Shown here: positions 11,744-58,913 of the stretch, one piece after another
Position numbering within the stretch: the stretch's first letter is position 1
Layout of the letters: every line of letters starts with the position of its first letter
NCBI GenBank assembly: GCA_021234155.1
Contig: JAJEKV010000009.1
Location: 7,055,546-7,119,545 of the forward strand
Length of the DNA stretch: 64,000 bases
Direction: 5' to 3'
DNA from: Isoetes taiwanensis
Lineage: Eukaryota > Streptophyta > Lycopodiopsida > Isoetales > Isoetaceae
The notes under the pieces: model-generated
Database searches by the model: none
The model's input: the letters and a program-made list of their open reading frames with translations, nothing else
Told to the model about the DNA's origin: nothing
Program-made: the position numbers and the translations under genes

Positions 11744-11744
11744 G

Positions 11745-19171: not shown

Positions 19172-19184
19172 AAGGAGGGGAGAA
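19172..19184 (+). other. Polypurine tract of element A
   Basis: AAGGAGGGGAGAA directly precedes the 3' LTR start TGTGACGTTCC. Confidence 0.8.
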
Positions 19185-33984: not shown

Positions 33985-36900
33985 CATCCCTGCGACAAAT
34001 AGGAATTGTGCCTCGGGTGGTCTCATGGAATTGTCGAGGCTTCCCTTGGCGAAGGGGGATAGGATCGAACTTCGTGTGGCGGAGATATGGATCTCATCTT
34101 TCTCATGGAGACATGGGAGCATCTTTGAGCACGAGCTACGATCTGTAGGGTTACCAACATTTCTCGGTCTTCAATACATGCGGGGCGAGAGGGGTCATGG
34201 TGGAGTGGCTTGCTACTACCGGACAACCTTGGCACATTCGGTTACCCTCCGAGGCAGGACATGAACCAACCGGTACTTGTGGGTTCGTGTGCATAATACC
34301 GGTGGCAACCCTCTTTTTACGGCGCTGTTATTTCCCTCGCGCAGAGAGCACCTTCTATCGCGACCACCCCGATGCGGATAGGATGGACCCTTATGTCGAT
34401 CTATATGATGACATCTGGAAGCACCAGCGGTTGGGTAGGGTCGTCCTTCTTGGAACTTCAATGCGCGGACGGGGAGTAGAGCAACCCATGCGACTTGACC
34501 CCCTCACGACGATGTCTGCGGCTTCGCCCCGCCGAAGCAACGGCGCCACGAGGATCGGATGCGGCCCAGTCACTCGCTTTGTGACAGTTGCTCTGCTATG
34601 TGGTATTTTGACTTGATAATTTGCAATGGCACATCCACGGTGGCGATTCTCGCAAGTGCACATGCGCGAGGCCAATCGAGGGGGAGGGTCTAGTGTGGTG
34701 GACTATGTGCTCGTAGTTGCGCCAAGATATGCATCTCGTCACTTTCGTTTAGGGTGGGCACGATCGGGGATGAAGGGGTCGACTCGATCACCTCCCACTT
34801 TATTTGGACTTGGTTTGGCAAGCCGCCCGGAACCCCACTATACCCGCCCCTCGCCGTCCTCAACTAGATTATGAGCGTGCGAGGACTACGCCGAAGATGC
34901 TCATGGATGCCCTCCCGTAATTAGCGGACCTCCACACTAGAGCAAAGAGCACCACCGGTGACCGCTATCACGGGATGCAGCGGGACGGGTGCTTTGGCGA
35001 ATCCCCCGCTCGCCCGCTCGGGGCCCAGCATTCCCAGCCAAGAACCGATGGTTTGATGCGGAGTGTAAAAGCATAGCGGCAGCTCCGTCACATTGCGGAT
35101 CCGGTACCCATTGCGGGCCACCCACAATCTGGCGCCCATCATCCGAAGGAGACAAAGGCGGCGGTACCTTGCCGAGCATCGGGGAGATGTTCTACTTGGA
35201 CACTCATCCTCGAACCTTTTGGCGAAGAGTGCTTGAAGGCCCGATCCGACCTCTGAGGGGACATCACACGAGGCGGTGGGAGCAGTACTTGCAGCAGCTC
35301 TATGACCCGCCAGGGACGCGTACGCCCATACCCCCACAGGATGGCCCCCCATTGGTTCTCGTGGAGGAGGATGTTGAGGAGGGCCTGCGAACGGTGGCTA
35401 ATGGGAAGGCGGTGACCTCGATGGTATCGTGTGCCGAAGTTACTCAAATGGGCGGGGCGGTACCGGCTTGTGTGGGTCCTCACTACCCCCGTTCAACGAG
35501 CATTGCGGGAAGGTCTCCCAGACAATGGACCCTGGCGGGGTTGTTCCCATTCACAAGGCGGGCGACCCACTTTGTCCGGCCAATTACCCGACGATCATGG
35601 TTAGCTTCGGTATTTGCCAAACCGTTATCGGCATTCTCGGCAAAGAATTGACCCATTTGGCAGAGGCGGCAGATGTCGCGAGCCCCTCACTGAGGCGGGC
35701 TTTAGACCCCGCCACTCAACGATTGACCATATCTTCACTGCTGCGGGGCGATTGAAGGCGTACCGGAATCATCGGCCGGGACTTGTATTGCTGATTTGTG
35801 GACTTCGCTGAAGGCTTTTGATACGGTTCCCAGGGAAAAGTTTGTGGGCTAGGCTGCGTCAAGCTGGGGCTCCTAGCTGCGCATGCGAGAATGCCATATA
35901 CGAGGTTGTATGAGAGTTGTTTTGGCGGGGATGCGACCCGGCGGGCCAAGCATTCACCGATAGTATCGGGTCGGCGCGGGGTTGCCCCCTCTCGCCAACA
36001 CTTTTTGGCCTCTACATTGATCGGTTAGAGCCCGGCTTCTTGAGCATGGGGAGATGGCATCTGACTTTTGCACCAGGTCATCCGCCCGGCTCATCTATGC
36101 GGGACGATGTTGGCCTCTTGGCCCACACCCGAAGCTATGCGGTCTCATCCGGATGCCCTAGACACATTTTGTCGGGCTACTGAGACATCTTGGCGTGAAT
36201 CGGCCAAGACGGGGTGGTTCTCATATCCTCTTCACATCACCCCATGCCTCCTGCGCGACTCACATATCGGGGGCGGACTCGCGTGGGCGTCACGCCCACC
36301 TACAAGTATCTAGGGGTGGAGTTCCCTTCCTCGCTCTCTTTGGGAGGCGTCTATCCGGCTATAAGGTGGTGGCCCAGTAGGAAAGCGCTTTATGCCATCG
36401 CAGAACAACGATCGTGCGGTGAGCTCTATGATTGGGGCCATCGGTCACATCTGTTCGCACGGGTCGTGAGCCTGTCCTTCATCATGCGGGGTCGAGGTTT
36501 GGGGCCCGGCCGCGTCTCTTTGGCGACATGGAGCGACTTGGGCAGTGCGTAAGGCATTTTTGGCACGGGCACTTGGGGTGAAACCTTCAGGTTCCCTATC
36601 GGTCTGGCTGCGCTAGAAAGCTGGATTCTTGCGCTTCAGTGGGCAGCCCTTGATAGATACATCGTCTATTTTCGAAAGTGGTTACTATGGGTGATGCTCG
36701 GCCCCCCGCACTTGGGCTTACACTTGTGGCAATGAGTCCGCTGGCTTGGCTTAGGGCCTTTGTTGGAGGGGTAAGAGAGATCGGTGGTTCGCCGGATGGA
36801 GCGTCGGCAGAACAATGAGTCGCGTGAGGTGGACCTGGCCCGGCCGATCGTGGCAGACTGGCGGGGAGTACCTAGGCGCTTGTTTCTTTGGCAAGCTCAC

Positions 36901-37322
36901 GGGACCCTAAGGCTCTAGAGCAGGTCAAAATGGCCCATTACAAGGAGCACATCAACCCCGTGTTAGCGGGGCCGCTGGCTCTACTGCGTTCCCGTTGCCC
37001 CTCGAAAAAGCGCAGACTCATTGCCTCCATTCGCCACAGGTGCCCACCATCTTCGCGATCGAGGCAGGCGGGTGGATTGGGGAGCCCCCCGGGGACGAGC
37101 TCGTCGGTCTGCCGTCAAGCGGGTGCCATTGAGGATGAGTCTCACACTTTCGAGTTGCCCAGTTACGCCGGATCCGGGCGGATCACGGCTCCCTTAGTAT
37201 GGCCGGACTTGCCCTTACATTTGCCGATGAACACACCGATGCATGCGTGCCACGGGTCGTACATTCGGGGAGGTCTTGGACTGCGAGGTCACCTTTGCCC
37301 CCTTTGGCTTTGCTTTCGTTGA
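33985..37322 (+). pseudogene. LINE ORF2: endonuclease, reverse transcriptase, zinc-binding C-terminus (many frameshifts)
   Basis: The endonuclease of the exonuclease-endonuclease-phosphatase fold is recognisable from VSWNCRGF (34020) and ELRSVGLPTFLGLQYMRGER (34130-34190). RT motifs are KAFDTVPREKLWARLRQ (about 35815-35860) and GSARGCPLSPTLFGLYIDRL (about 35965-36030). The catalytic YADD is at about 36096-36109 and is split by one extra G (GCGGGACGAT). KKRRLIASIRHRC (about 36995) and GAIEDESHTF (37120) form the zinc-binding end. The protein nicks target DNA and reverse-transcribes the element RNA from the nick. The frame changes at least six times. Confidence 0.75.
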
Positions 37323-37944
37323 TTAGGCCTGCAGTCGCGGTGCATGATTGTATATATTTGGGTGTTTTACGCATTTTGTATGTTAGTTTGTCGTGGTGAT
37401 TGTCGCCCGCGGTTTTCCCTCGAAAACCCTTGAGTGGGGTTTTTAATCCGGCGATGTAATCCGCTTGCTACGTTTTTGTATTGGGTCCCATAGATCGATT
37501 GGTCTCCGTGGACGATAAAAGTACCTTCCTTCCTTCCTTCCTTCCTTCCTTTCATGTCAAAGAAACTTGTATTCGAATTTCTGAAGCTCATGGTTTCAAT
37601 GGCTTTGGCACTTCAGGATTTGGGCATTTCAGAATTGCTCCCTTTATGCGCCACAAGTACTTGATATCGGTCCTGCTATGTCAGATCTTGCATTTTGTTT
37701 AGAGTGAGCCTTGTTTGCTCTTCTATTTCTCTTAGTTTGCAGGATCTGACCCTAAACTTGCAGGACCCATTCATTAGTAGCATGGGGTCGTTGGTCTTCG
37801 ATTGCGAACAAGAGTAACACCAGAGGTGTAGGTATTTCTTACCATTTGTGATGTACCAGCATAATATAAGGTACAAATACATATATTATACGGCCAGGTC
37901 ACTCGTACATGTCGCCTTGATAACATGTACTTACAACTGTAAAG

Positions 37945-38225
37945 GGGTCAAAGCATGGAGCTGGGGGGCATTTTTGCGCCAGCCAAGCACCCCCTAAGCA
38001 CCTAATGCGGGAAATTTTACTTATTTTTATCTTTTTTTCTATAACTCCGATGAAGCTGAAATTTTGTATTCCAAGGCGTAATATGAATGCGTTTCAGGGA
38101 AAAATATCAAAAAAATAAAAGAAAAATATTTTTTAAAAATACAAAGAAAATAGCTCCAGAAAGCACCCCCTAAGCACCATGTGTCGCTGACACAAAAAGT
38201 GTCCCCCACCTCCATGCTTTGACCC
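37945..38225. mobile_element. MITE-like element with terminal inverted repeats
   Basis: GGGTCAAAGCATGGAG at 37945-37960 is inverted at 38210-38225 (CTCCATGCTTTGACCC). The similarity extends inward for about 40 bp with mismatches. AAAG flanks both ends (37941-37944 and 38226-38229), a possible target-site duplication. AGCACCCCCTAAGCACC occurs as a direct repeat inside both arms. The 281-bp body is AT-rich and non-coding. Family unknown. Confidence 0.7.
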
Positions 38226-38342
38226 AAAGGGTTGCACCATAGGAGACAACTTCCTAGGTTGCGCATATCTTTACTTGTGCAGTTAACCCCTTTTTGCCAC
38301 ATAGCAAACACCGCATGACCTTTTGGTCCTAACCCTAAAAGG

Positions 38343-38384
38343 GCCGTGTAAAATTTAGCTCAATGCTCTCGCGCACTGTGTGAG
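38343..38384 (+). promoter_or_regulatory. Hairpin module a1 (left arm eroded)
   Basis: It retains the inner TAAAATTTAGCT and the right arm GCGCACTGTGTGAG (38371-38384), then GTGTTTGAC, as after module a2. The left arm is not recognisable. It is the first of two modules before gene 1. Confidence 0.6.
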
Positions 38385-38533
38385 TGTTTGACCATCATTC
38401 ACCCAAAAAGATGTATAATTAGAGTAATCTCATAGCATAAGGCAGCTTAGAACATGATTTAAGCTAGGAGAACATGTCATAACCCTAAGAAAGTGTCTAC
38501 AAAACCTAAAATAGTGTTAAAAAGGGGTGTCCC

Positions 38534-38596
38534 CTCACAGAGTGCGCCAGGACCCCAAGCTAAAATTTAGCTCGACCCTCTCGCGCACTGTGTGAG
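38534..38596 (+). promoter_or_regulatory. Hairpin module b1, upstream of gene 1
   Basis: Outer arms CTCACAGAGTGCGC (38534-38547) and GCGCACTGTGTGAG (38583-38596) pair with one mismatch. The inner palindrome AGCTAAAATTTAGCT is at 38558-38572. The module recurs at 42402-42464 and 42605-42666. Its place before two different genes suggests a control element, a transcript end signal or a transposon-end structure. Confidence 0.8.
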
Positions 38597-38710
38597 TGGT
38601 AGCAATAAATTTAGTCTAAAGGAACCTAATATTCTAGTCCAGCAAACACTAATGTTTTAAATAATGGTATAACAGGAAATTGCAGGTCGAATCCCTAAAA
38701 TTCCCACACC

Positions 38711-38718
38711 TATAAATA
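38711..38718 (+). promoter_or_regulatory. TATA box of gene 1
   Basis: TATAAATA in CACCTATAAATAGACC is a textbook plant TATA box. It lies 52 bp before ATG 38763 and 112 bp before ATG 38823, so a start site near 38745 would suit either. Confidence 0.65.
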
Positions 38719-38822
38719 GACCTTTAGGGTTCGTCATTCTCATTGTACTCCTTCAACTTGCTATGATCCGACCAACAAGGCGATCTTTAGGTGCTTGGAA
38801 GACGATTGCATTATTTCAAAAC

Positions 38823-39982
38823 ATGGCCCACATCAAACAGACTGCTCGAGTGGTTATGGAGGACAGATCAACAAGGTCTAGGTTCTCGCCGCCGACAGAA
38901 GGCGAGGGAGGCCAGGAACGAGCCAGAAATGAAGAATCCCAAAATCCAATTTCGGATCAACTAAACCCAGAGAACCAGGAGGAGGAGCAAGAACAGGAGG
39001 AGAACGAGCATGATCAGGATCAACAAGGCCACCAACAGAATCTTGGTCAGTAAGTGAACCTAGAGAACCAGGAGGACGGAGACTAAGAGGATGAGGAGAA
39101 GCAGAATCATGCAACTGCAGAGAAGGAGGCTTGTCATCATAGGAAAATCACCAAGAAGAAGAGGAAAGCCAAGAAAAGAAAACTTGCAGAGAAAGCGAAA
39201 CTTCTGAAGCAGAGCGAAGAGAAGGGGAAGGATCCAGTACTCCCGAAGCCTCAGAGGAAAACAAAGAAGACACTTAGCAAAGGGGTGAAAATTACGGAGA
39301 GAGATCCCGACAGACTGGCATCATCATCCTCAAACACAGACTCAGACGATGACGCTTGGAGGATATCTCGCCAGACAGAAGGGACGTGACCCTCCAATCC
39401 CAATAATCTAGAAGTAGCATCCCCACCTCCCTACCCAGCATGGCCGGAACCAGCTACAGAGCCCAAGTCGGCACGGGAGTCTTACGTACTCAAGCATGAA
39501 TGGGAGTACAAGAAGGAGATGAGGGAGTACAAGGAATATATGAAGATGTACGAGGCATACTCCAAATACTATGAGAAGCACAGGGTGATGTACGTGGAAG
39601 GGGAAGGCCGACCAAAGAAAACAACTTGAAGCCACCCCCGGAGAGACCCGTAACGCCAAAGAAGCCTATGAAGCGGAGTAAGGGCTTGTACTTTGCCAAA
39701 GCTGCTCGAGAGGTTCGGCATTTCCAGAGGAGCTATGGACTTCTAATCCCAAAAGCCGCATTTGCAAGACTAACCCGCGCGATCTTGCAAGAATTCGACA
39801 AGGAGAAGCGAGGAACAGACAACATGTTGCTTGCATTGCAGGAAGTAGTTGAGCAGAGGCTGGTGCAGCATTTTGAAGACTCTCTAGCATGTGCTCTTCA
39901 TGCGAAAAGAGACACTTGTATGCCCAGAGGTATGAAGCTGGCAAGATTATCAAGAGGGAAGACTGTTAAATTATGTACATAA
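38823..39982 (+). pseudogene. Gene 1: long histone H3-like protein (three nonsense codons, one frameshift)
   Basis: The best start is ATG 38823 in AAAACATGGCC. The protein begins MAHIKQTARVV, so after Met removal Lys4, Gln5, Thr6, Ala7 and Arg8 match the H3 tail. An upstream in-frame ATG (38763) would add 20 residues. Then follow an acidic Glu/Gln stretch, a Lys-rich stretch (about 39140-39280), an acidic Ser stretch and a helical Tyr/Lys/Glu stretch (EYKKEMREYKEYMKMYEAYS). From about 39690 there is a histone fold: REVRHFQRSYGLLIPKAAFA, LLALQEVVEQRLVQHFED, CALHAKRDTCMPRGMKLARL. I count about 41 of 85 residues identical to canonical H3, without gaps. Lengthwise it is about 386 residues against 135 for H3. 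TAA 39051, TAA 39084 and TGA 39387 interrupt one otherwise open frame; a 1-base loss near 39626 shifts into the fold's frame. The true stop TAA is 39980-39982. The linker is unlike CENH3 as far as I recall, and loop 1 has canonical length. Confidence 0.8.
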
Positions 39983-39983
39983 A

Positions 39984-42257
39984 TTTTTTTTTTTTTTTTT
40001 TTTTTGAAGAACTGTGTCATCAATATATTAAAAGAATGGTAATGTTACAAAGCAAGTGAGGAGGAAGGAGAACTGCCCCAAAGAGACAGCGATACCTCGA
40101 CACTCCACAACAAACTCACAGAAAAACTGCAACTCTACTGCTGTACAAACCGACCATCGCCAAATGGAAAACTTCCGCTCTACTAATCCCGGGAACACCA
40201 GAAAGCTTTGAAATAGCTTGTACCTGAGTCGAGGAATCAGAGAGGCTGCCGCAGTCTTTGAATCCCCTAAAGATCCACAACAACCGCTTTCAAATCAGCC
40301 ACACCAACCAAGCAGCGCCACGGATGCAGGCTTGTTGCCGCAAGAGCGCCAACCACGGAGATACACATGAAGCAAAGAAGCGCGCTTGCTAGTCAATCTC
40401 ACCAAAGCGAGCCACGACCCAATCGAGGCGGGCTGCAAGTGAGGGCATAAAACCGGACAATGCTCCACAATCTCACGATGAAGGCCACAACAAGGGCAGA
40501 GAGGGCTCACACCCGCCCTAAACTGACTCACAAGGGCATTCACCACGATCTGATGGTGCACCACCGCCACGAAGCACCCTAACCCGATTGGGGAAGTGAG
40601 CTCCATGTCCACGTCCAAACCAAGCGCCATCGAGAACCTGGAAGCTGCAGAGACCACTTGCCTGAAGGGGGCAGAGTGTCATGAATAGCCAGCACCCGGT
40701 AACAAGACCGCACAAAACAAGAAGACACAACATCCGGATGAACCTTCCAAACCTGCACCACCACATCATCCTGAGGGACTATAGGTATGTGTAGCGGAAT
40801 ACTCCCCGCCACTTGTTCCCAGATAGCCCGGTCACTGCCCCTCAGGTGAAAGCGAGCTCGAAAGAACTCCCACGAAGCTAGCTGACCACCCCAATACCAA
40901 TCCTCCAAGGTGAGCACAGCAGCTTGCCTCCAACGGGCCTGCGTCCGAGCATGCACAGTGGCAGCCAAGGGCAAGTGCGTAGGGGGTAGAGGAACCCACA
41001 AGAAAGGAGAAGAGTGGTGATAAACTGAGGCATAATCTAGCTGGAAGAGCACATGCACATGATCCCAAGCCCGCAACACCCCCGTGAGAAAAGGGGATGC
41101 ATGTGGGAAAGGCCGGAGACCATACAACAGTGCCCAGGGCAACTCTACATGCACAGACGGCTTCCCAAATGCCACACAATGGCGAAGAGACTGCAACAAC
41201 AACGCCGCACCAGGAGAAGATGCTCCATCCTGTAGAGTGCTCCAAACACCTTACCCCTTGTTTGGTTTAGTGGCTAGTCCACTATGTTCGTACCCAAGAG
41301 ATCTTGTGTTCAAGTCTCTGGGTGGGGGTCCGTCATATGTCCTATATGGATGCTGCCCTGTGGCATGACGTAAAAATAATATCTATATCTGTATCTGTAT
41401 CCAAACAAACTTGGAGACCAACACCTTACTATGCAGTGCCAAATCCAGAATGGCCAAGCCCCCATCCTCCCGGGGACGGAGACACTTCCACCAAGCCACT
41501 TTAAGAACCGCCCCTTCATCATCCCCGCCCCACACAAAATTTCGAACAATCTTATCCAAAGCCTGTATCTTACCCTCAGGAGCTAACATCGCAGATGCTG
41601 TATACACATGAGTGCTACAAAGTACTGACTTGGCAACAGTGATCCTACTTGCCATGGATAACTTGCTACCCTTCCACCAATTGAGGTGTTTCTGCAACTC
41701 CTGCAAAATCTCGTCCCACACCCTCCCCAGGGAAACATCCCCTCCAAAGGGAATACCCAACAGCTTAGTACACACATTACCTGGAAGCACCTTCCAAGGG
41801 AATAGAGCCAAACAAGGGGGAGGCGGAGTCAGTTGAGCCCATAATGCGGAGCATTTACCCCAATTAAGAAGAATGCCTGAGGCCAAGAAGAAAGTATCCA
41901 GCAGACCCTTCACATTCCGCAGATTCCTCTCTTCTGCCACCAAGAAGAGGAAAGTGTCATCGGCGAACTGGTTAATAATCTGCTGGCTACCATCCTGCAT
42001 CCGAAGCCCATCCACCACCCCCTCCTCCACTGCAGCCAAAAACAACTGAGACAGGGCCTCTGCCACAATCGTAAACAAAAACGGCGCCAAAGGTCACCCC
42101 TGACGCACCCCTCTGTCTAAGGAGAAAAAGGCGGAGGGTTCGCCCTGGCACACCACCGTAGCCCGTGCTGATCTATGCAGCTTCATGACTGTCTCTGTAA
42201 AGCGTGGACCACAGCCCAACGCTAACATCATGGCAGACAAGAACTCCCAACGGACAC
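39984..42257 (-). mobile_element. 5'-truncated LINE (L1-like) inserted at the end of gene 1
   Basis: The target-site duplication TATGTACATAAA is at 39972-39983 and 42258-42269. The poly(A) tail appears as poly-T from 39984. On the minus strand it encodes the end of the RT core (EALSQLFLAAVEEGVVDGLR, NQFADDTFLFLVAEERN, 42060-41930), the connecting region (LNWWKGSKLSMASRITVAKS) and the zinc-binding domain (CPCCGLHREIVEHCPVLC, 40530-40470). A TGA replaces the Cys codon of the RQGCPLAP motif at 42091-42093. The reading frame is interrupted by a SINE at 41249-41399 and is otherwise fairly well kept, so it is a comparatively young copy. Confidence 0.9.
41249..41399 (+). mobile_element. tRNA-derived SINE inside the LINE
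   Basis: 151 bp flanked by TCCAAACA (41241-41248 and 41400-41407). It has box A-like TTTAGTGGCTAG (41267-41278) and box B-like TGTTCAAGTCTC (about 41308-41319), the internal polymerase III promoter of tRNA-derived SINEs. It ends in a short CTATATCTGTATCTGTA tail. Removing it joins SKFVW to STLQDG in frame on the LINE strand, matching the related LINEs. Confidence 0.75.
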
Positions 42258-42269
42258 TATGTACATAAA

Positions 42270-42400
42270 AATTTTTGTGGTATAAAAGTTGTTAAATTTG
42301 AGTTGCAAACTGTAATAATATCTTTGTTGTAGTTGTATTGATGGCATGTGTAATTTATTTTGATTAATTTGGACAAAATGTGACCTAATAGAGTCCCACC
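42270..42400 (+). other. 3' flank of gene 1 with possible poly(A) signals
   Basis: AT-rich, with TGTAATAATATCTTTG at 42308-42323. A very similar TGTAATAATATTTTTATC occurs after gene 2 (44361-44378), so the two genes share 3' flank features. Confidence 0.45.
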
Positions 42401-42401
42401 C

Positions 42402-42464
42402 CTCACAGAGTGCACTAGGGCCCCAAGTTAAAATTTAACTCGGCCCTCTCGCGCACTGCATGAG
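42402..42464 (+). promoter_or_regulatory. Hairpin module a2, between gene 1 and gene 2
   Basis: Outer arms CTCACAGAGTGCAC (42402-42415) and GCGCACTGCATGAG (42451-42464). Inner palindrome AGTTAAAATTTAACT (42426-42440). Compared with module b1 both sides of the inner stem changed (C to T and G to A), which keeps the pairing. It is followed by AGTGTTTGGC, as module a1 is followed by AGTGTTTGAC. Confidence 0.8.
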
Positions 42465-42604
42465 TGTTTGGCTACTGATCTATACCTAGACAAGTCCAAA
42501 ACAAGAAACTAAGGGCATATTCTAGCTTACTCCGCGAGATAAGCAAGATTCTACCTTCATACCAGAATTTTCAAGTCATCTAGGACCCAAACAGGAGCCC
42601 AGCC

Positions 42605-42666
42605 CTCACAGAGTGCGCCCAGACCCTTAGTTAAATTTAACTCGGGCCTCTCGCGCATTGTGTGAG
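42605..42666 (+). promoter_or_regulatory. Hairpin module b2, upstream of gene 2
   Basis: Outer arms CTCACAGAGTGCGC (42605-42618) and GCGCATTGTGTGAG (42653-42666). Perfect inner palindrome AGTTAAATTTAACT (42629-42642). It lies 140 bp after module a2, against 149 bp between a1 and b1. It is followed by TGGTCCGAATTAAATAG, similar to TGGTAGCAATAAATTTAG after b1. Confidence 0.8.
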
Positions 42667-42699
42667 TGGTCCGAATTAAATAGCCATAACTACCCACAA

Positions 42700-44333
42700 C
42701 CCTCATTTGCATCCTACAGTCTCACTCCTCACTCCAAAGCAATTTTCCTACTCACAGAGGCACTTGCATATCTATTCGTTGAACCCATCTACATCAGCAT
42801 CGTGGCCATTTCTTCATTCAGGCGATGGTACAACGCCACTGCTCATGTGGCAGAGGCCGACATCAACTCTGTCTTTGCTATCTTCTAGACAGAAATCGAG
42901 TAGATGCCACCATAAATGCCACACCATACTACCAAGACATCATGCGAGAGTTCCAAGCTAAGATAGGCCCCTCCTTGGTAGAGCTTCCCCCATCCATAGG
43001 GTACTTCGCACCTAGGACAGCTCTTCGAGCCGCACTGAGCGATGTTCCAAACATTGACAAGTACTTAGAAAATAGAGTTGGTCCATGTCCGACTACATGA
43101 CCATATCTATAAACAGAAAGAGATATTTCTCTTATACTTTTGTTGTAGCCATCTTCTTGTCCCACATAGCCCAAACTCAAATAGGGAAACCTTCTATCCA
43201 GCCAATGAACATAGAATCCACTGGCCCCACAGCAGAAGAGCAGTTGCTCCTCGAGCATGAAAGCTCAGAACAGGAGGAGGAGGAGGAAGAAGATGGACTT
43301 GGATACGATGTCGAAGACCTCATCGATGTCGACCCTATCCAAGAATGGCAGCAAGCAAAGCAAGAACTTTAGCGCCTCAACGAAGGCCTGAGGATGACAA
43401 GGACAGCTCTCTCGATCTGGTTAGGCATCACCAGCTTAACCTCAGTCATGATCGAAGGCCAAGAGTACCTCCTACTGCACGACATCAAGAATCTTCCAGA
43501 GTGCGGAGACAGAGGATACCGGATGGACGAGCTCCTACACCTCGTGCACCAACAACCCAACCTCAATGACTTCATCGACCGAGAAACTCAAGACTTCCCC
43601 ATCAGCATTCAGGAAGCCTACACTGACACGGGGCAGTCATCATCGGACATCGAGACCTACAGTAGCATCCGACCGATGATGACTCAACAGGAGCTGTCTT
43701 CGGAGGAATAATTCATTTCCATCCAAGAATGGATGGGCATTCGGGGCAGGACGACGAGCGCACTCCTGCCCAATTCGTCATCAATGGCGCCAATCGGGGT
43801 CGACAAAGTGGGGTCAACTTGGCCTCTTTCAGGTCCGTATTTGCAAATTACAAGGACCTGACTGCAGTACCGGTCGACGAGTACTCCAGAAGGCATAGGG
43901 CCAGCATCATAACCAGAGAAGAGGCGGGAGAAGCGGGACATGATAAGGCCCTCAAGTACTACCTCCACTCCTCTTCGACGGAAGGATACCAGTAATACAC
44001 CGGCAGTTCAGCCCACGGGGAGAAGAAAGGGTGTTCATGCTAATTTTCCTCTCCGAATTTGGTAGACATACGCGGATGCCTCAAAACATCGACCATGTCA
44101 TATTAGTGAAGAGGACAATAGACCTGAGCATCTTCGACTTCGCAGTCCCTCATCGACGTCAAGGCAGATTAGCCATCATTCTGGCCTATACATCGGATCG
44201 AAGAGTGGTAGATTTGGTAACACCAGGTGGTACACCCACCAATATTCGCAGGAACTTGGGACGTACAGTTGGTACAGCCCAAGTAAAGAAGTTCTTGGAA
44301 GACCACCCTGCATATCGGAGATTCCAAGAATAG
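42700..44333 (+). pseudogene. Gene 2: unrecognised protein of the hairpin cassette (frameshifted)
   Basis: The start is unclear. A hydrophobic stretch in one frame (LLTEALAYLFVEPIYISIVA, about 42750-42810) leads into ATAHVAEADINSVFA, then shifts near 42885 to RNRVDATINATPYYQDIMRE and PPSIGYFAPRTALRAALSDV (to 43080). From 43085 to 43711 one frame is open with a single TAG (43370-43372). It holds an acidic run (EQEEEEEEDGLGYDVEDLID) and YRMDELLHLVHQQPNLNDFI. Further frames give FRSVFANYKDLTAVPVDEYS (43830-43890) and, at the end, DHVILVKRTIDLSIFDFAVP and VGTAQVKKFLEDHPAYRRFQ before TAG 44331-44333. No histone fold, polymerase or transposase motif was recognised. The original length would be about 500 residues. 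The arrangement of hairpins before it mirrors gene 1, so both probably belong to one unit. Confidence 0.5.
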
Positions 44334-44509
44334 TTTAAGATTTTGTTCTCCATAAATCATTGTAATAATATTTTTATCTTATGAATATATTTTGTTGGCA
44401 TTATGAATGTTCTTTGATATATTTTTGTTCCCACAACTACATCATCAAACAACGAATGCAACAATAAACAAAAGCTAATTATAAGAGTCCAATCCAATGT
44501 GTATACAGC

Positions 44510-47500
44510 TAGAGCACCCCAGACCTTAGAGCAAAACCGACGCCATCAGAAAGAGAAAACTCCCCCACGACAATTCCAACCAAGGAACTGGTACTAGGAG
44601 TTCGAGGCACCGACCCCAGAAGAAGATATATCCCAGATGAGATTGGACATCCAGGAGATAAAAGCTTTACTGGCAGAAAGGGTAGCAATAGCACCAGACC
44701 AGAACGTCCAGCTGCCCCATGCACCTGCTCAGGGAACGGATAAGGAAAGGAAGAGAAACTAGAAAAGGAGATCCCCCAGCAAGGACTCCTCCAACGCCAA
44801 TTCCAACTCCGATTTGGACTCAAAAGAGCAGGATAATGATCAAGAAGATCGCCTGAAGGGTCCGAATCGTGATAAAGGCAGGAACGGGGCCAACTATCAG
44901 AAGAAAGTTGCACTGAGCAACGTGTAGAAAGCCAAGAAGTTAGAGCAGTTTTCAGGGGATAACAGGTCAGATATGGAAGCCAAAGCCTGGTTAGACGAGA
45001 TGAGAGAGTATATAGGAATGCTTATGGCATGAAAGATAAGGACAAGAGAAGGGTAGCAACAACCAACCTCAAGGGAGCGACAGGATTTGGTAGAAAGCTA
45101 TGCCAAGGCCCATGCGTTGAGCAGGGATAGCTGCAGATTCAAGAAGTTCTCCAACGCATTTAAGCGTCACCATGTGCCAAGGGAACACAAGTGTCATATG
45201 ATGCAACATTTTTATAGGTTGGAGCAGGGCAATAAGATGGTGCAGAAGTATACCAAAGAATTTATGAGGCTAAGGCTCTATGTCCCAAAGCTAAGCGAAA
45301 GACATGCACAGTGGAGGGGTATATTGAGGGCTTGAATGAGGAGATCAGGAAGCTTGTGTGAGTCATCAACCCCAAAACAGTGTCAGAAGTAGAGTCCAAT
45401 GTCGTGAGCCTACAAGGAACAGGTCCCCAAAGCAGTGGGCAAAAGCAGTAATACTATCAAGACAAGCCCGGCAGCTGCCAGTCCACAGTACAATGCAAAC
45501 TATGGGAAGCAAGGCAATGCAAATTTTGGGAAGCAGGACAAGAAGCATGTCAGCTTCAAAGACAAAGAACAAACGGGTAGTTCAAACTACTCCAAAGCAG
45601 TGAAGTAGTTCTTGCAGTCCATCCCAAAGGAGAAGAAAAATGAATATGTAGAAAAGCAATTGTACTTCAGGTGCTTCCAACCGATAAATCGGACATACAA
45701 CTGTCCTTTTGTAACGAACGTGGCACTAGCAGAGCTAGGAGGATGGGAGACATCCCTGGAACGATGATGAAGACGTGAGCGACTACATCTAGGGCGAGTG
45801 CCACATCTTTGCTGCCATTGACACCGAGTCAACAATAGGGAAGGTCAAAGCGAAATCCTTCATAGTGTTGATAGACATGAAGAGCACCCATAATTTTGCT
45901 TTGCCAAGGATGGTAGAGTTGTTGAAGCGGAAGCTTTTGAAATCCAAGCCTAGGCCTGTTGTGTTGGCAAGTGGAGCAATCCGACACACAACGGGAAAGA
46001 GGATCAACTTTGGCATAGACTTGCCAAGTATCAACATTGTAATGGGAGCAAAGGTCATGAATGTCAAATATGACTTGATCATACGCATGGAATAGCTTGG
46101 CCCGGCTAGGGTTGTGATTGATTGCGGGTAACGACGCCATATGGCAAGGTCATTGAGATAACATGTAAAGAAGTTACCCCAATCATGCAATGCTTGTCTA
46201 GTAAGAAGTTACTTAGGTGCATACAGAAGGAGCAAGTGGCCTATGTCTTTAAGCTCGAAGTTGAGGGGCAGAAACAGAGGAAGACAAGGAGGACAAAGCA
46301 TTGAGCAAGTTGCCAAAGCAAATAGCCAAGCTAGTGAAGGAATTTTATGATTTATTCCCAGATGAGATCAAGCAACTTCCACCTTACAGGGGAGTTGAGT
46401 GTGAAATATCACTTGAACTAGGGACTAAGCGCAAGTAAGGCACCTTACATAATGACACCTCAGGAGTTGACAGAATCGAAGAAGCAATTGGAGGACTTGC
46501 TAGACCTAGGGTTTATGTGACCTAGTGTCTCCCCGATTTGTCAAGAAGAAAGATGGAAGTCTAAGAATGCGCATTGATGATAATCAATTGAACAAACACA
46601 CCATCAAGAACAAGTATGAAATGTCCCAATTAGACGATTTGATGGATCAGCTACAAGGTGCAAAGGTTTCTCCAAGATAGACTTGAGGTCAGGCTATCAT
46701 CAGATTAGAGTCAAGGAAGAGGACATTCATAAGACTGCATTCAGAACGAGATATGGCCATAAGACTGCCATTCAGATTGTTCAACGCCCCAGCAACATTC
46801 ATGAGGCTCACAAACGACATTTTTTGTGAGTTTCTAGATATGTTCATCATAGTTTTCTTTGATGACATTGGTGTACAAGTCCTTGGAGGAACATGCCCAA
46901 CACTTGAGGAAAGTACTTGAAAAGTTGAGGAGTCATCAACTTTATGCGAAGTTATCCAAGTGTCACTTTGCCACTGAAAGAGTGGAGTACTTGGAGCATG
47001 TAATTTCAGCAAAAGGGATCTCCACCGACCCTGCGAAGATTGAAGCAGTAATTGATTGGCCTGCACCGAAGAATATCCATGAAGTGAGGAGCTTCCTCGG
47101 TTTAACAGGGTATTATAGAAAGTTTGTCAGGAACTTTGTCAAGATAGCAGCACTGCTGATGGACCTCACCAAAGCATAGAAGATAAAAGATTGGGCGAGT
47201 CATTGGCAAAAGAAGGCCCAAGCAGCATTTGAGACATTGAAGGAAGCTTTAACGATTGGCCGGTCTTAACATTGCCAGATTCATAGAAAGACAAGTTGGT
47301 GGCAACCGATGCTAGCAAGATTAGGAGCAGTCTTGATGCAGGAGGAGAGGGCTGTAACATATGATTCAAGGAAATTGAATGATGCTGAAACCCGTTACCC
47401 AACCCATGACTAAGAGTTGTTAGCAGTGATGAGAGCATTGAGAATATGGAGACATTATCTATTGGGAAGGAAGTTCCAATTAGACACAGACCACTAGAGC

Positions 47501-47843
47501 TTATAGTATGTCTTCACCCAACCCACATCTCAACTTGAGACAAAGGAGATGGATAGAGTTCCTGAAGGAGTATGATTTTGACATCATGTACAAGCCAGGC
47601 AAACTCAACGTAATTGCGGACGCACTCTCAAGGCATTCTTTGACGACAAGAGTCCATTGCAATGCCATATCAACACTCACCAGTGAGTTTGGCAAGAGGA
47701 TAGAAGAGACGCTGCCAACGGATCGAGACTTTAAGGAAGTATGAACAAGCCTTTCCAAGGAGGCAAGAACGGACAAAGAGATGGAAACCTTCAAGCATTT
47801 TAAAAAGGAAAGCAATCTATTGTACCATAAGAATAAACTGTGT
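44510..47843 (+). mobile_element. Element C: decayed chromovirus, left part (gag to RNase H)
   Basis: Gag (44640-45610) shows AKAWLDEMREYIG, CRFKKFSNAFKRHHVPREHK and YTKEFMRLRLYVPKLSERHA; the zinc knuckle is damaged (LYFRCFQPINRTYNC). The protease region (45840-46095) has HNFALPRMVELLKRKLLKSK with the active-site DTGS changed to DMKS. RT (46340-47180) has [20 protein letters not shown] and [20 protein letters not shown], with frameshifts. RNase H ends in MYKPGKLNVIADALSRHS (47590-47640). The chain breaks at 47843 in NKLC, where element B is inserted. No 5' LTR lies between gene 2 and gag. Protein order and sequence are those of element A, but it is far more eroded. Confidence 0.8.
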
Positions 47844-48425
47844 TGTTAGTCCTGTGCCTCCTGGTACAGGACTATTCATGCATACGTCAGACCAGGTCAA
47901 GCTCAAAGATCCTCAGTCAACCACGGGTCAGACATCCAAGCCTCCCAGAAGACTAAGCAAAGAACCCACCTTGATCAAAGCCTTTGGTACATCAACAAGA
48001 GGCGCCCTTCGGATAAGTGGCGGCCCGTCACCGCCCAGCGTCGGCGTCGGCGTGATTCTAGGCACTTCAAGAGGCACCGCCAATATTCTCACAAATCAGG
48101 CCTCCTTCGAGAGTCGGCATAGAGATCGGTCGAGTGTCTATATTGGGCCCAAGGCCATTGTACTATATATATGAGTAGAGTTAGCTCATAAGTTTTTAGA
48201 TGAGTTTTGAGTCTTGTCTCCTTTCGATTTTTCTCTCTATTGCGAGAGCTCATGTATTTTCATCATTGATATCAAGGAAGCTTATCATCTTTCTCTCATT
48301 TGTTCTTGTTCTCTTCTTTTTCTTCTCTTTCGGCCAAATCCAGCGTGACATAGTCCCCGGACTCTCTGTTAGATCCACGGGTCCTCACAGAGGGTTGTCT
48401 TCGAGTTCCAACCGGACCCCAAACA
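47844..48425 (+). repeat. 5' LTR of element B
   Basis: TGTTAGT to AAACA, 582 bp, matching 58322-58908 with scattered differences and small indels. The TATA box CTATATATATG is at 48163-48173. Confidence 0.88.
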
Positions 48426-48439
48426 TGCATGCCGGGCCG

Positions 48440-50560
48440 GGTCTGATTTTCTCCTACTTTCTTACATGCGCCATATGCGTCGTAATTTCACGCCCGGAAG
48501 AACTCCTTTCTCGGACGGCATCTCGCTTGGGGCGCCATCGGCGCGGAAAGCTGCTTCGCGACATGTATGGATCGCTTATGACATAGAGGGAGGCCATCTT
48601 GGTCGAGGGCTCAAAGTCGCGCCACCCACCCTCGTGTCGAGTCTCGTCCCAGTTCCCCGCCCCAAGCGTGCAAACATTGCTCCCAACCTCAGTCCCCTCA
48701 TCACTATCAGGAGCCTTATCCGGCTCAACCTTCTCAACCGTACTTTCACACCCCTGAACATGCCTACATCCATCATTCTTCAGGCCATACGCCTCTTCCT
48801 TCGCAACCATCATCTCCCCCGGGTGGGCACGGCTATCCACATGTCTCCTTTGCGCCTACCCAGGAATATCCTTTCCCTACGTTTCCCACTGCTCTTCCTG
48901 TTTACAACCTTACAGATCTCAAAACCAATGCTCGGCTGCCGGTTTCTCAACCGCAGTCACCCCTTCATCAGGGTCCGTCAGGCACAATGCCACATCCACC
49001 TCAACCTCAATATCCTCACTATCCTGTTCCTGTCCAGCCCAGCACTTTCACATCTACCTTTCGGACTTCTGGCGACTTATCCCACCTTTGGCAACACGAA
49101 GGCAAACCGTTAGACCAAAGTGCTCGGGGCCCACATGGAAGAATTTGAGGCTCTAGCTGTCCTAAATGGTCACGCCGCAACCTCAACTGAAATTCCACAT
49201 CTTTTCCACCCACATGCGTGGCTCTCCTCATCAATGGCTCATGTCCAACAAAAGCCATTGGAAACAAGACTGGTCCGAAATGCGCTTTGCTTTTTTCTCA
49301 TTACGGGACCACGGATGATGATCAACTTCATCTCAAGCAACTCAATGAACTTCAACAAGAGCCCCGGAGTTCCGCGGGATTTTGCGGATCGACTTCACAT
49401 TCGCTAAGTAAGCTCAAGGAGTACCCTACACGAGCCGATTTTTGGTCTGGTTTCTCCAAGGACTTCCTCCTCGCTATTCGACTCATGATGAATACTGCGG
49501 CCCAAAACTTTGGAGCGGGGGCTATCGACCTTGTCAATCACTCGTCAATGTTTCCTCCCGAGGCGTGGCTCTTCAAGAGCTCCGTTCATTCCACCCGTCA
49601 TGGTTCCACAAAGCGGTACATTCAGCCTCAACACGCTAATCCACAGTGATAGTCAAATGCGGTGCCATATTTGCAAATATCAAGGCCATTTGGCCAATGA
49701 GTGCAACTCCACCAATGGCCCGCCTCATTGCAAGCGATGCAACATGTGCAATCATGCCACGGAAGAGTGCACTCGCACTCATCCCACACCGTTCCGCAAC
49801 AAAATGGTTTATCAAGTGCAAACCACACCTCAGCCACAATCACACTATCGGCTGACCACCCCGAGGTGCAGCCACGCAACTCTATCGAAACGGGACCAAC
49901 CACGGGGATCCAACCAACGTCCTCCTTTTGATCCTTCTAAAGCTCAGTGTTATCACTGTCAAGAATGGGGTCATACCACCACAGCGTGTCCTCAACTTCC
50001 ACAAGTTCAGGTCCAGCTTCCTGGCACAAATCAGACCACATCGGTCCGCCTCACGGCTTACCAACTCTGGCTAGCTAATGGCAAACAAGGCCCGCGACCA
50101 GTTCTTAAGAAGCCCCTAAGGCGCCTCGGCAATCACGCTATCAACCAGCTCCGGCAAATCAACCTCATTTGGATCACCAAGCCCAAGAGGAAATTTTTCG
50201 TGCACTTAATCCTCCCCGAAATCTGGCCCGTCAAATTGGGTTGGTCTAGTTTCACGCTTGAGACCAAGGCATCACGTCCCTTGACTATTATTCAGAAGGA
50301 CACGCAACCTGCCTTTGCAGTTGACACCATTCCTCATGAGGACGAAAAAAAGGTTCACTTTGCACCTGACTTGGAAAAGCTCATGCCAAATGTCATGCCC
50401 AAAGTTCGCCAAAGCATTTTGAATCTCATGCAAGCCTTTGAAGGCCGCACATTGGCCAATGTTCATGCCACCACTAGAGCTCAACAAAGACAAGATACCC
50501 CTTCAACATCTCAACCTCCACGCTCTCGGACATATCCCAATATTGCGGCCCGAGGTTGAC
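48440..50560 (+). pseudogene. gag of element B, with three CCHC knuckles
   Basis: 48440-49420 is Pro/His/Ser-rich and frameshifted. 49510-50559 is open and contains three zinc knuckles in a row: CHICKYQGHLANEC, CKRCNMCNHATEEC and, after a linker, CYHCQEWGHTTTAC. CCHC knuckles bind the element RNA. Downstream SVRLTAYQLWLANGKQGPRP is the part also seen in the older relic at 9660-10121. The frame ends near IAARG at 50557-50559. Confidence 0.75.
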
Positions 50561-50739
50561 TTACTCAAAAAAGTTCTTTGCTTCCCCGCCACGCACTCCC
50601 ACGGTGGAACCAGCAGATCCTTTTTTCTCATGTACCTCTCGAACTCCAAGAGGAGCTTGCCAAGATCAAAATTCCTTTAAGCTTGGCAACCATTTTAAAA
50701 CGTCATCCGCTCTCAAGGACCGGTTATCACTCCCAACTG

Positions 50740-51193
50740 TTTTTTAGTTGGGGCTGTGGCTACCTCTACACCCACGGTCCATGCCACGGTGGGAAATCAG
50801 CAAGTCAACCATGTTCAAATCGATGGAGGTAGTGCAGTCAATCTCATCACGGATAAACTCCGCAAACAAATGGGCATCACACAACTCTTTCGTGCCCCAT
50901 ATGACATCAAATTGGCTAATGGCCATATCACGAGACCTCAAGGCGTCACACCTATTCTTCACATCAACATAGGTGATCTCCGCTTTCCCATGGAATTTGG
51001 AGTGTGGAAAGCTGGCGAAGATCCAGGTGACTATGAAATGCTGGTAGGCAGACCCTTTCTCCGCCAGGCAAAGAGTATCCATTACTGGGCCACGGACCAG
51101 TTAGTCATCACAGATGGTCATCTCAATGCCACCATGGACTTGCAAACAGGCAGGATCATTTCTGTTGACAATGCGGAACCCTCTCTCGGATAA
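50740..51193 (+). CDS. Aspartic protease region of element B
   Basis: The open frame 50756-51193 encodes HVQIDGGSAVNLITDKLRKQ, the DGG-S active site typical of Athila/Tat proteases in place of DTG or DSG. LANGHITRPQGVTPILHINI and the fold's end YEMLVGRPFLRQAKSIHYW follow. It would cut the gag-pol polyprotein. The piece is entered and left by frame changes, so it is part of a broken pol. Confidence 0.75.
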
Positions 51194-51739
51194 CCGATTC
51201 TCAAGGCGCTTCGAGAATATTTATCAAGTTAGGAGGCTCCCCTGCTGGCGTCGCCCTCGTCATCCTACCCCGAATATGCCGATCCTTGGGGAGAAATGAC
51301 TCTTGATCGGGACCGGTGTGGCTGCCTTGCTTGACCCTACGGCTCCTTGCAATCGAATCCAACGCATTGATCACTTTTGGGATCGCGACACTCCACGCAA
51401 CTCCCTGTTGATGTACACTTTGATCATGAAGCAACCAACGCTAGATAAAGCCGAGCAACCTCTCTTTTCACCACGCAAAGTGCCACGCATCCGGTTATGC
51501 TCCAACCTCCACGCACACATTGTCCGGGATGAAGTCATACCCCATATTGGACTCTGAAGTCGAGATTGTGGATGTTGGCAACAATCAAACTGTCGCATTG
51601 CCGCAAACCTTAGGCTCCTTATCGTGCAGGGCCGTCCGCGGCTGTTCAAAAATTCAAACACATTTTCGCTGGAGTTACAAAGATCTTGGGGAATCAACAA
51701 AAGCTTGGGGAACTCACCATTCCTACCAAAATCGATGCG

Positions 51740-53010
51740 ACCCGATGTAGCAACGACGAGATGAGCTCAACCCTAATTACCGTGATCGCGTCAAGGCGGA
51801 AATTGACAAACTCCTTGCTGCGGGTTTGATCTATGAGGTCAAACATTACGAATGGGTGAGCCCTATCGTCATTGCCCTTAAGCACAATGGTAAGATCCGG
51901 CGTGCGTGTGGACTATCGGAAACTCAATCGGGCCCGCGGGCGTGATCATTTTCCACTTCCCTTCACAGACCAAGTTACGGAAGAAGTGGGCGGACATGAG
52001 ATGTACTCCTTTATGGATGGTTTTTCCGCTACAATCAAATCTCCATCAAAGAATCGATCAACTCAAGACCACTTTCACCACCCCCAGGGGCACTTTTTGC
52101 CTACAAGATGGTTCCTTTTGGATTATCCAACTCTCCTTCAACATTTCAACGCATCATGCTCTCGTTTTTCATGATTTCATGAAGGAAAATCCCTTCTTGC
52201 AAATTTTTCAAGATGACTTCTCGCCCTCTGAGTTCCATGGCTGACCATTTGGATAAATTGGAACTCGTCTTCCAGAAATGTGATGAGTCCGGCATTAGTC
52301 TCAATCACGAAATGCACCTTTTCGTCACTTACGGTGTTACGTTAGGCCATGTTGTCGAAAAAGCGAGGCATCACCACCGATCTGCCAAAATCGGTTGTGT
52401 GCTCAAAGCTCAAGCACCAGCCAATATCAAAGAGACACGCTCTTTCTGGGAAAGGTCAATTATTACTCCACCTTCATACGGGTGGCAGCCATTGCAGATC
52501 CCATTCATAAACTCACGGGTGACGAATCCACCTGGGCTTGGAATTCCCAGGCGGAAGCTGCTTTCCAACAGCTGAAGCTTTTGCTTACTCAGGCACCGGT
52601 TCTTGTTCCTCCTCAATGGGACAAGCCCTTTCACGTTCATGTCGATGTCTCGGCGTTTGCTATTGGAGCTGTTCTTTCTCAAGAATATGATGTGCACTGC
52701 CGATAAACCAAATCGCTACCCGGCCCGAAAACTCAATTACTGGCGGCGCAACTATTACGCCACGCGGGCGTGAAGCTTTGGGTCTCATTTTCTGTGTCCA
52801 ACGCTTCCGTCATTACCTTTTGGGCAGTCAAATCAAGTTCTTTGTGGACCACCAAGCACTTCTCTATTTGATCAACAAATCCACGCCCACGGGCCGCATT
52901 GCTCGTTGGGTCCTTCTTCTCCAAGAATTTGCTCCTTTTGAAATCGTTCATAAAGGCGAGGCAAATCTCATGTTGTTCGGATTATCTTTCACGCATCCAC
53001 ACGGATGATC
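51740..53010 (+). pseudogene. Reverse transcriptase and RNase H of element B
   Basis: RT: RVDYRKLNRARGRDHFPLPF (51905), GHEMYSFMDGFSA (51990), then in another frame LKTTFTTPRGTFC (52070) and the catalytic region as LQIFQDDFS (about 52200). RNase H: FHVHVDVSAFAIGAVLSQE (52630), HYLLGSQIKFFVDHQALLYL (52812) and FEIVHKGEANLM (52940). Frames change at least five times. Confidence 0.75.
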
Positions 53011-53099
53011 ACGCAAGCGAGGGGTCTCGAGGCGCCTTCCACGATGCTCAACTCTTTTTTAGTCACGGCAACACCACATTGGTTTCATGATTTTCAGCG

Positions 53100-54358
53100 G
53101 TACCTCCTCACCGGTGCTCTTCCACCGGAAGATGAGGCGGCTCTCTCACCTTAGCGACAATCACGTCGCCATCAATTTCTCCAGAGAGGTCCGTGACTAC
53201 ACCATGGTTGCGGACATCTCTACAAAAGGGTAAGGACACCATCCTTCGATTTGTGTTCTCCCTCATGAAGTTCGGACATTGTTCGAGAAGCTCATCAAGG
53301 GCTCGGTGGTGGTCATTTTCATGGTGACACCACGGACGCATAAAATCCTTCTCACCGCCCAGGGTATTATTGTACGCTCTTTAAAGATGCTCCGCCCACG
53401 CCGTGTGGCGCTTTTGGTGGGTGGGCGCCCACGCCCGTGGCGCTCTTCCCTTGGACGCCGGTCGCCACGCCACTTCCCTTCAAACAAATGGGGAATGGAC
53501 TTTGTGGGACCTATCGATCCTCTGCGGCGGCACCTTTCGTGCGATACATTCTGGTTCTCACCGACTTCGCCACCAAATGGGCGGAAGCTTGTGCACTTCG
53601 GACAACAACTTGCTGCGCAAGCGATTTCGAGTCCTCTATCAACAAATTATCACGATTGATTTGGCTGCCCCGCGGGCTGGTGGTTGACCCGTGGTGTTCA
53701 TTTCATCAATCATACTATCAAAAGGCTAGCGGATTATCTCTTGATCCATCATCACAAGAGCACACCTTACTATCCTCAAGGCAATAGGGTTGGCGTGAAA
53801 GCACCAACAAAACTACGGTCACCATTCTCAAGAAAATTTGTGACGCTTCCCGCACAGATTGGCAGACAAAACTTCCTACTGTTCTTTGGGCCTACAATAC
53901 TTGTTTCAAGATTGCTACGGGTCACACTCCTTTTAAATTGGTTTATGGTCAGGAAGCTCTCATGCCCTTTGAATACATTCTTCCAACACTTCGGTTTCAA
54001 GCAAGCTCTTGCTCATAATCCACCATTTGCTCTCAAAGAGCGGGTCTATCAATTAGAAACGGTTGGATGAACTTGAAGGGATGCTTATATTCGTGTTCTT
54101 CATGGACAACAGTTGCAAAAATCTTTACATGACAAACGTTTGAAGACAAAAACATTCAAACAAGGAGATTTGGTTCTTCTTTATGATTCCAGGTACAAAA
54201 ATTTTCCGGGTAAACTCAAGTTTCGTTGGCTTGGCCCTTATCAAATTGTTCAAGTGGTTAGACCAAGTGTTTTCCAACTCGCTGAATTAGATGGCACTCC
54301 ATTACCTACATTCGTTAATGGTTTTCGTCTCAAAGCATTTCATCACCGTAGAAAGTGA
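53100..54358 (+). pseudogene. Integrase of element B
   Basis: The DDE core is seen as NKWGMDFVGPIDPL (53487) and ILVLTDFATKWAEACAL (53550). It is followed by IKRLADYLLIHHHKSTPYYP (53717) in further frames. The open end 54113-54358 is the C-terminal DNA-binding part: FKQGDLVLLYDSRYKNFPGK, LKFRWLGPYQIVQVV and the stop at 54356-54358. No chromodomain follows, consistent with the Athila/Tat branch. Confidence 0.75.
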
Positions 54359-54954
54359 ACATCCCAAACACGTAGGCAGGTTCAAGAATCAAACACCACG
54401 AGAAAGTGACTAGAAAAGCGGTGATTATATTATAGTGGAGATTTTTTACAAAATGTGGCGCTGACCCAGCTATTTCGCTATGGGCCGCGCCCTATATACA
54501 AAAGCGGGCTCGAGCCCTATCTACTAAGTCCTAAGAGGAAAAACCCTCTACTCAGGGTTCGGGGCGAGAGGTGATGCGAGGAGATGGTAGAGGTTACGCT
54601 CCGGATCGAAGGTGCAGAACCACCTCCATCCGTTGGTCTTGGTCGGGATGTTCAGCCATCCGGCACACCGGCCGTCCATGCGAATACCCGCGGTTGTGGC
54701 GGCGCCCGAGATCCGAACAATTCATCTTACAAGTGATCCACTCGGCGGTTAAATTCGGCATGGTGCAATCTTCGTTCAAGCGGGCGGCCGCCATCTTGGC
54801 GCCATCGGATGCCTTCGTTTCTCTCGGTCGCTCGTCTTATATAGCCAAGCGAGGAACTCCTTGTCGGCGTGGACCAATCACACAAATCGCCAGCGTGTTT
54901 GCAATGCAAGGTCGTTTCTAATATGAGAATCTGTTCTCCCCCGCATATCTAGCC
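54359..54954 (+). other. Spacer between pol and the 3' ORF of element B
   Basis: No convincing coding frame. CCTATATACAAAAG at 54491-54504 is TATA-like and could serve a subgenomic transcript of the downstream region. Otherwise nothing was recognised. Confidence 0.4.
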
Positions 54955-57700: not shown

Positions 57701-58310
57701 TCCTTTTTTGGACCAAGGTCATGGATGGTCATGCGGCTGGACACCACCCTCGGATCTCGGCCGGATCTCGGTGGGATCCGTTTTTTAAGCGCTCACATTG
57801 GGAAGAAGGTGCTACTCACGGACAACACCACCAATTGGATCTACATTGCTAATGGCGTGGTTGCAACGGCCGGCGGCGGATGCGCTTCATGGTCTCAACA
57901 CCTTCTTGCGAGCGCCTCCACCTCACGATCCTTACATCCATCTTCAAGCAGGGATTTTCGCTGCCCTCAAATGCATTTTGCTAAGCTCCTTAAATCGGCG
58001 TCCCATTTTTCATTTTGCAATCCAAATGCGGCGTCGGTGCCTTTGGCCTTGAGACTGTCTCCTCATGGAGTGTCGGTACATTTCTTGGGCGCCCATCTTT
58101 GCGCTTGAAGACATGTAGTGCGCTCTCGTTTTCTTATTGATGCTGATCACGCCCTTGGGCCAAAACACACCTCAAGCTCTTCAATCACGCCAAGATCTCA
58201 TCAGCCCGATTACCATAATGGTGCCCGTCCTCACTCCGTGAGGATCACTTTCAGGCCCGATGGCTTCAGCCCTCGGCGCTTCCTCCTTTTCTTCACTCAC
58301 GAGTGTCGTT
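57701..58310 (+). other. 3' untranslated region of element B
   Basis: Short frames only; no supported protein. It ends at the polypurine tract. Confidence 0.4.
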
Positions 58311-58321
58311 TGGTGGGGGAG
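58311..58321 (+). other. Polypurine tract of element B
   Basis: TGGTGGGGGAG immediately before the 3' LTR start TGTTAAT. Confidence 0.65.
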
Positions 58322-58908: not shown

Positions 58909-58913
58909 TGTGT

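Follow-up and report, generated by a model that had tools for sequence, protein, structure and literature searches.

The window, i.e., the whole stretch of 64,000 nucleotides analyzed in this study, carries on its plus strand an H3-like coding sequence that opens with a histone H3 tail at 38823, closes with a histone fold and stop codon at 39982 and is almost certainly the ORF1 of a dead Ty3/gypsy LTR retrotransposon, probably of the chromovirus type, in a genome that is plant-like by its element types and its host H3. The H3-like start MAHIKQTAR claimed in the earlier note was confirmed at 38823-38849. The tail start as a whole (38823-38852, plus strand) reads M-A-H-I-K-Q-T-A-R-V, in which H3 residues 4-8 are retained, residues 2-3 are H-I and residue 9 is V. 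It is followed by a charged linker (38853-39620, plus strand; tblastn of the L029 ORF1 against 38604-39620, 45% identity), whose length of ~270-280 residues agrees with the earlier estimate of ~270. The H3 fold and the stop codon (39980-39982) occupy 39626-39982 on the plus strand, as delimited with Pfam PF00125, the H3 chains of the PDB and a comparison with L029, and the fold itself, within 39626-39979, lies in a frame other than the tail frame. The profile search placed it in the H3 family, with a score of 61.3 bits (E 1.4e-16) against PF00125 (Pfam Histone), for which the cut-off is 26.4 bits. The PDB H3 chains matched at ~71 bits (E ~1e-18) with H3.3 and H3.1 at the top, and 175 distinct PDB sequences matched at E ≤ 0.01. 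Where 41 of 85 residues had been counted as identical by hand, the alignment with the canonical H3 of the host gave 45 identical residues out of 93; identity to L029 is 74% over 39599-39949. The window copy has G at fold residue 123 and keeps the K at 64. Given the three in-frame stops in the tail frame (39051, 39084 and 39387) and a frameshift somewhere between ~39599 and 39620, this copy is broken, and it is an old one. Since relatives (L029, L030, L031, L032, L034 and L035) join tail and fold in a single open frame, the two belong to one gene, as the earlier note had it, and the possibility of separate genes for tail and fold is ruled out.

The remainder of the element could be followed on both sides of ORF1. 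Its 5′ leader (38367-38822, plus strand) was recognized by blastn to L029, oriented 683 onward, and includes a TATA-like sequence, TATAAATAG, noticed by eye at 38711. Upstream of 38367, neither an LTR nor a primer site belonging to this H3 copy was found, and a scan of the window for primer-binding sites with up to one mismatch gave a sole match at 11745. A LINE-like insertion (39984-42257, minus strand) adjoins ORF1 with its poly(A) end and is bounded by a 12-base target duplication, TATGTACATAAA, at 39972-39983 and 42258-42269, which spans the ORF1 stop; the RVT_1 match within it, at 41386-42090, scored 22 bits and was under the cut-off. The element resumes at 42395-44609 (plus strand; 42395-42619 and 43107-44609) with a stretch that in L029 corresponds to the remains of a second ORF (ORF2), and continues with decayed gag, protease and reverse transcriptase (44772-47843, plus strand; tblastn to L012 and L020, and blastn), a nested LTR element inserted in pol (47844-58910, no strand assigned; repeats at 47844-48427 and 58322-58910 are 89% identical) and a decayed integrase (58909-60150, plus strand; comparison with relatives). 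The window is colinear with L029 across the leader, ORF1, the ORF2 stretch and gag, and with L020 across pol. Thus gag, reverse transcriptase and integrase of the H3 element are all present in decayed form, and reverse transcriptase precedes integrase, as in Ty3/gypsy elements. A candidate remnant of a chromodomain of the H3 element was seen, by eye only, at ~60000-60150.

A second Ty3/gypsy element lies at 10123-20813, and its LTRs are at ~10.1-11.7 kb and ~19.2-20.8 kb. It has an exact primer site at 11745, and the interval from there to gag yielded no H3 ORF. This H3-less sister element encodes a chromodomain (PF00385, E 1.3e-9) at 18194-18592, and both of its LTRs are matched by L017 at 86-91%. 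The stretch at 1-2567 consists of a pol end and an LTR from a further copy of the same family as the element at 10123-20813; several 300-base segments of it match the copy at 18-20.6 kb with 100% identity. The GC-rich stretch at 34473-37520 has minus-strand matches to L017 at 66-78%, and a short MITE-like element with inverted ends GGGGTCAAAGCATGGAG and CTCCATGCTTTGACCC, recognized by eye, occupies 37939-38227, just 5′ of the leader. The Rfam scan of the window gave no match at the gathering cut-off.

The family to which the window ORF1 belongs is large in the 1.66-Gb host genome. A search of the genome with the Histone family scored at least 150 matches among 8705 first-look candidates, with surrounding open frames of up to 494 residues, and the window's own fold as query scored at least 150 relatives among 8000 candidates, at 65-83% identity with the window itself set aside. 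Two matches to the window fold (G000:C907:46167968 and C907:46751465), 0.58 Mb apart and equal in frame (478 aa), score and identity, represent either a recent insertion or a duplication. In 20 places selected among those with longer frames (L009-L028), termed here the main families, the H3 fold ends an open frame of at least 300 residues in all except L024 (19/20). The element context was counted in 21 long copies (L009-L029): gag/pol lies downstream of the H3 fold in 19, ORF2 lies downstream on the same strand in 20, and both occur together in 18. The spacing is regular, with ORF2 homology beginning 211-288 bases past the fold in 19 of 20 copies and gag/pol homology 2416-2741 bases past it in 16 of 19 (L020, L026 and L029 deviate). 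An exact initiator-tRNA (Met-tRNA) primer site, TGGTATCAGAGC, is found ~600-780 bases 5′ of the H3 ORF in L029 and in 13 of the 20 main-family copies, an exact match being absent in the other seven. The gag-pol domains of L020 comprise a Ty3 capsid, protease, reverse transcriptase, RNase H and integrase. The ORF2 of the H3-bearing elements (L022:3117-4502 and relatives) is ~440-470 residues long in five aligned copies; one copy searched against Pfam at E 0.1 matched no family, and a five-copy profile searched against the PDB at E 1 matched no sequence. The family consists of Ty3/gypsy LTR retrotransposons whose ORF1 is a histone H3, captured, retained and amplified by these elements. The earlier reading of the gene as H3-like stands for its fold, which is of the H3 family; the gene is not a cellular H3 variant, being instead the accessory ORF of an LTR retrotransposon. 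The view that it is not a simple processed copy of a host H3 was upheld by copy number and element context, and intact paralogues, i.e., relatives with open frames, are present in the same genome.

The H3-bearing ORF1s are of two kinds. In the main families the fold is ~85-90% identical to host H3 and is preceded by another N-terminal part, without the H3 tail start; the N-terminal 325 residues of one main-family ORF1 had no relative among 5.8 billion proteins (4609 candidates). In the window's lineage (L029-L049) the fold is ~46-52% identical to H3, and the proteins open with the H3 tail start, as in L029, whose 388-residue open ORF1 starts with MARTKQTARMV. In the tree, 11 rows of this lineage, the window included, form one group with 100/100 support on a long branch. 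A protein search with the L029 ORF1 gave 74 matches among 7996 scored candidates, covering 12-43% of the query, and the 70 stretches of viral contigs that fit a peptide pattern yielded no confirmed relative.

In both groups, conservation within ORF1 is highest in the fold. Of the 21 folds of the window's lineage, two had a stop within the match and were set aside; residues were checked in the other 19. R69, C110 and R116 are kept in all 19, R83 and H113 in 18, and R49 and D123 in 17. All 19 carry K56R and K79D, and R63 has been lost. Among the checked residues, those with DNA- and H3′-contacting roles in H3 are largely retained apart from R63. Selection was estimated by the uncorrected Nei-Gojobori method from the 21 pairs of seven ORF1s, in which residues 1-11 had a mean pN of 0.072 and a mean pS of 0.346, the linker 0.227 and 0.619, and the fold 0.096 and 0.659. 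In the 66 main-family pairs, pN/pS was 0.12 in the fold vs. 0.44 and 0.57 elsewhere; all of these ratios are rough, since synonymous sites are near saturation. They indicate purifying selection on the fold and, less strongly, on the tail. In line with the argument of the earlier note for selection on the whole protein before it decayed, tail and fold both show purifying selection among the relatives. Structure prediction, which the note had named as a check, gave two AlphaFold models of poor mean pLDDT (56 and 57). The helices of the first (293-311, 317-334, 339-367 and 377-384) have a layout that would suit H3, to which we attach little weight, and Foldseek found no match for these models at E 0.001.

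The tail was surveyed in the 21 copies of the window's lineage, which had been selected by the length of the frame around the fold, irrespective of the tail. A recognizable H3 tail start occurs in 19 of them, the tail region being missing in L041 and L049, and stops fall inside two of the tails (at residue 2 in L036 and residue 8 in L046). Residue 9 is I in nine tails, M in seven, V in two and K in one; the sole copy with K9 is L045 (MARTKQTARKVVPEG), in which K9 may be the older state. The conservation of K4-Q5-T6 is partly by construction, because 18 of the 19 tails were located by a KQT key; residue 3 is T in all 18 keyed tails. Residues 10-12, S-T-G in H3, are replaced in this lineage. Over residues 1-9, four of the 19 tails (L029, L034, L043 and L048) match the H3K9M peptide exactly. 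Genome-wide, the pattern M-A-x-T-K-Q-T-A-x-[I/M/V] has 386 + 434 = 820 exact matches, summed over I, M and V, and the tail of the window copy, which has I at residue 3, lies outside it. The reversed control gave 0 + 0, so a chance origin of the tail is excluded. It should be noted that the figure of 820 does not give the number of working genes, because about one-third of the listed matches, by hand count, belong to one near-identical family (L050-L053) with decayed frames.

The tail also heads proteins of another kind. Among 16 loci picked from the tail matches for variety (L050-L057 and L059-L066), four (L054-L056 and L065) have MARTKQTAR followed by V or M at the head of another protein; L065 is a 330-base piece that resembles L055. 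L055 had no Histone match, and its 9.9-kb context, L058, had no H3-fold match at E 1e-8. The tail-bearing protein without a histone fold lies at L058:3158-4162, and a search of 2386 candidate proteins gave it no relatives. As L058 has no gag-pol match at E 0.01 but has a DUF7869 gene, on the strand opposite to the tail-bearing protein, it may come from another kind of mobile element. L050-L053 start with MARTKQTARI and their frames are broken shortly after; an H3 fold survives in part in L051 (E 1e-13) and as a faint trace in L050.

H3K9 methylation is a route of transposon silencing in plants. A transposon-encoded H3 with a K9-substituted tail could be a decoy for H3K9 silencing, the reading that we favor, though tentatively and at somewhat less than even chances. 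The ORF1 protein would enter the nucleus and pair with H4 or sit by the chromatin, presenting a tail that resembles the H3 N-terminus yet could not be methylated at position 9. A K9M tail, and perhaps a K9I tail, would hold H3K9 methyltransferases without turnover, and H3K9 methylation of the element would be blunted as a result. Expression, chromatin entry, enzyme binding and the effect on silencing are steps that we infer. In one report, the SET domain of G9a with SAM was found to bind the H3K9M peptide ARTKQTARMSTGGKA, and the in vitro activity of Clr4 was lowered by an H3K9M peptide (PMC5030085). The decoy reading is weakened by several observations: the exact K9M peptide is matched in only four of 19 tails, residue 9 is most often I, and is V in the window; residues 10-12 are replaced, and L045 keeps K9; the abundant main families do without an H3-tail N-terminus; and about one-third of the listed pattern matches come from a single near-identical decayed family. 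The simplest reading would be a decoy by which H3K9 methylation is blunted or, at minimum, a tail not markable at residue 9. The broadest form, in which H3 has been turned into a counter-silencing weapon and K9-to-M/I/V tails of several lineages, on histone-fold and unrelated proteins alike, poison H3K9 methylation, is doubtful as a whole.

Retention of residues 1-8 but not 9-12, together with the invariant T3 of the keyed tails, would also be expected if the tail served in docking, i.e., bound readers or editors of the H3K4 region (PHD-type proteins, LSD1-type demethylases) for integration targeting or activator recruitment, the loss of K9 merely repelling heterochromatin proteins. We consider this rather unlikely, given that the K4-Q5-T6 conservation comes partly from the KQT key used for 18 of 19 tails and that docking alone leaves unexplained why 18 of 19 copies, and several lineages, have only I, M or V at residue 9. 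The fold offers another explanation: it could bind the cDNA or RNA of the element, or host H4 in the particle or pre-integration complex, and the tail would be a relic of the captured gene. Consistent with such a packaging role are the superior conservation of the fold in both groups and its ~85-90% identity to host H3 in main families that lack the tail start. A relic tail, however, would be expected to decay, whereas the tail is kept in 19 of 21 copies and also occurs on a non-histone protein, and packaging is in our judgment unlikely.

If the captured H3 were a passenger without function for the element, broken copies such as that in the window would be no surprise, and many copies are indeed broken. 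This is very improbable in view of the long open frames in many copies and of the comparisons between subfamilies, in which mean pN is well under mean pS in the tail, the linker and the fold. Least credible of all is a host H3 variant or CENH3 retrogene copied by chance beside mobile elements, for which the H3 homology could be cited: at least 150 relatives were scored among 8000 candidates, and the order with ORF2 and gag/pol is fixed in 18 of 21 copies. CENH3 would be one or a few host genes at centromeres, whereas the window fold belongs to a repeated element family with at least 150 scored relatives. As the identity of the gene, a host H3 variant, CENH3 and a processed pseudogene were all rejected, given the copy number and the element context.

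The H3 elements share with plant chromoviruses (chromodomain Ty3/gypsy elements) the order of gag, protease, reverse transcriptase, RNase H and integrase and the Met-tRNA primer site, and the chromodomain typical of chromoviruses is found in the related H3-less element of the window; the H3 elements differ in having an H3-fold ORF and ORF2 between the primer site and gag. Additional ORFs ahead of gag occur in plant LTR retrotransposons, e.g., the ORF1 of Ogre, which has the same pre-gag position; here the ORF encodes a recognizable histone H3. Compared to canonical H3/H3.3, the window's lineage has in common the fold, tail residues 1-8 and most of the checked fold residues, and differs by an internal linker of ~270-280 residues, the replacement of K9, K56R, K79D and the loss of R63. 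Viral histone mimics are short motifs in unrelated proteins, and the VANC-type anti-silencing proteins of plant transposons act via DNA, through loss of DNA methylation. In both cases, likewise, a parasite protein imitates the H3 tail or counters silencing, but neither, to our knowledge, carries a histone fold. The likeness to dominant-negative H3K9M histones (PMC5030085) is identity over residues 1-9 in four of 19 tails; the tails reported here are natural and transposon-borne, have I or V in other copies and differ at residues 10-12, and their inhibitory activity is putative. Chromodomains are known in plant LTR retrotransposons, and the portions of two reports consulted describe no H3-fold ORF in them (PMC3350952, PMC6338049). 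In the open-licence PMC literature, covered mostly as titles and the openings of abstracts, neither a retrotransposon-borne histone H3 nor a K9-substituted H3 tail on transposon proteins was found. Within the reach of these searches, the H3 cargo has no precedent; the vehicle itself is an ordinary element.

The loss of K9 makes it directly testable whether transposable elements counter H3K9 silencing with decoy histones. If true, such decoys would be the equivalent in nature of the K-to-M histones known from work in yeast and cancer, and if the counter-silencing reading holds, the host's main transposon-silencing mark would be attacked by a decoy of its own substrate. Should the ORF1 protein enter nucleosomes, a transposon would supply part of the host chromatin. 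Whether or not the proposed mechanism is wrong, a histone fold under strong selection in mobile elements needs explaining.
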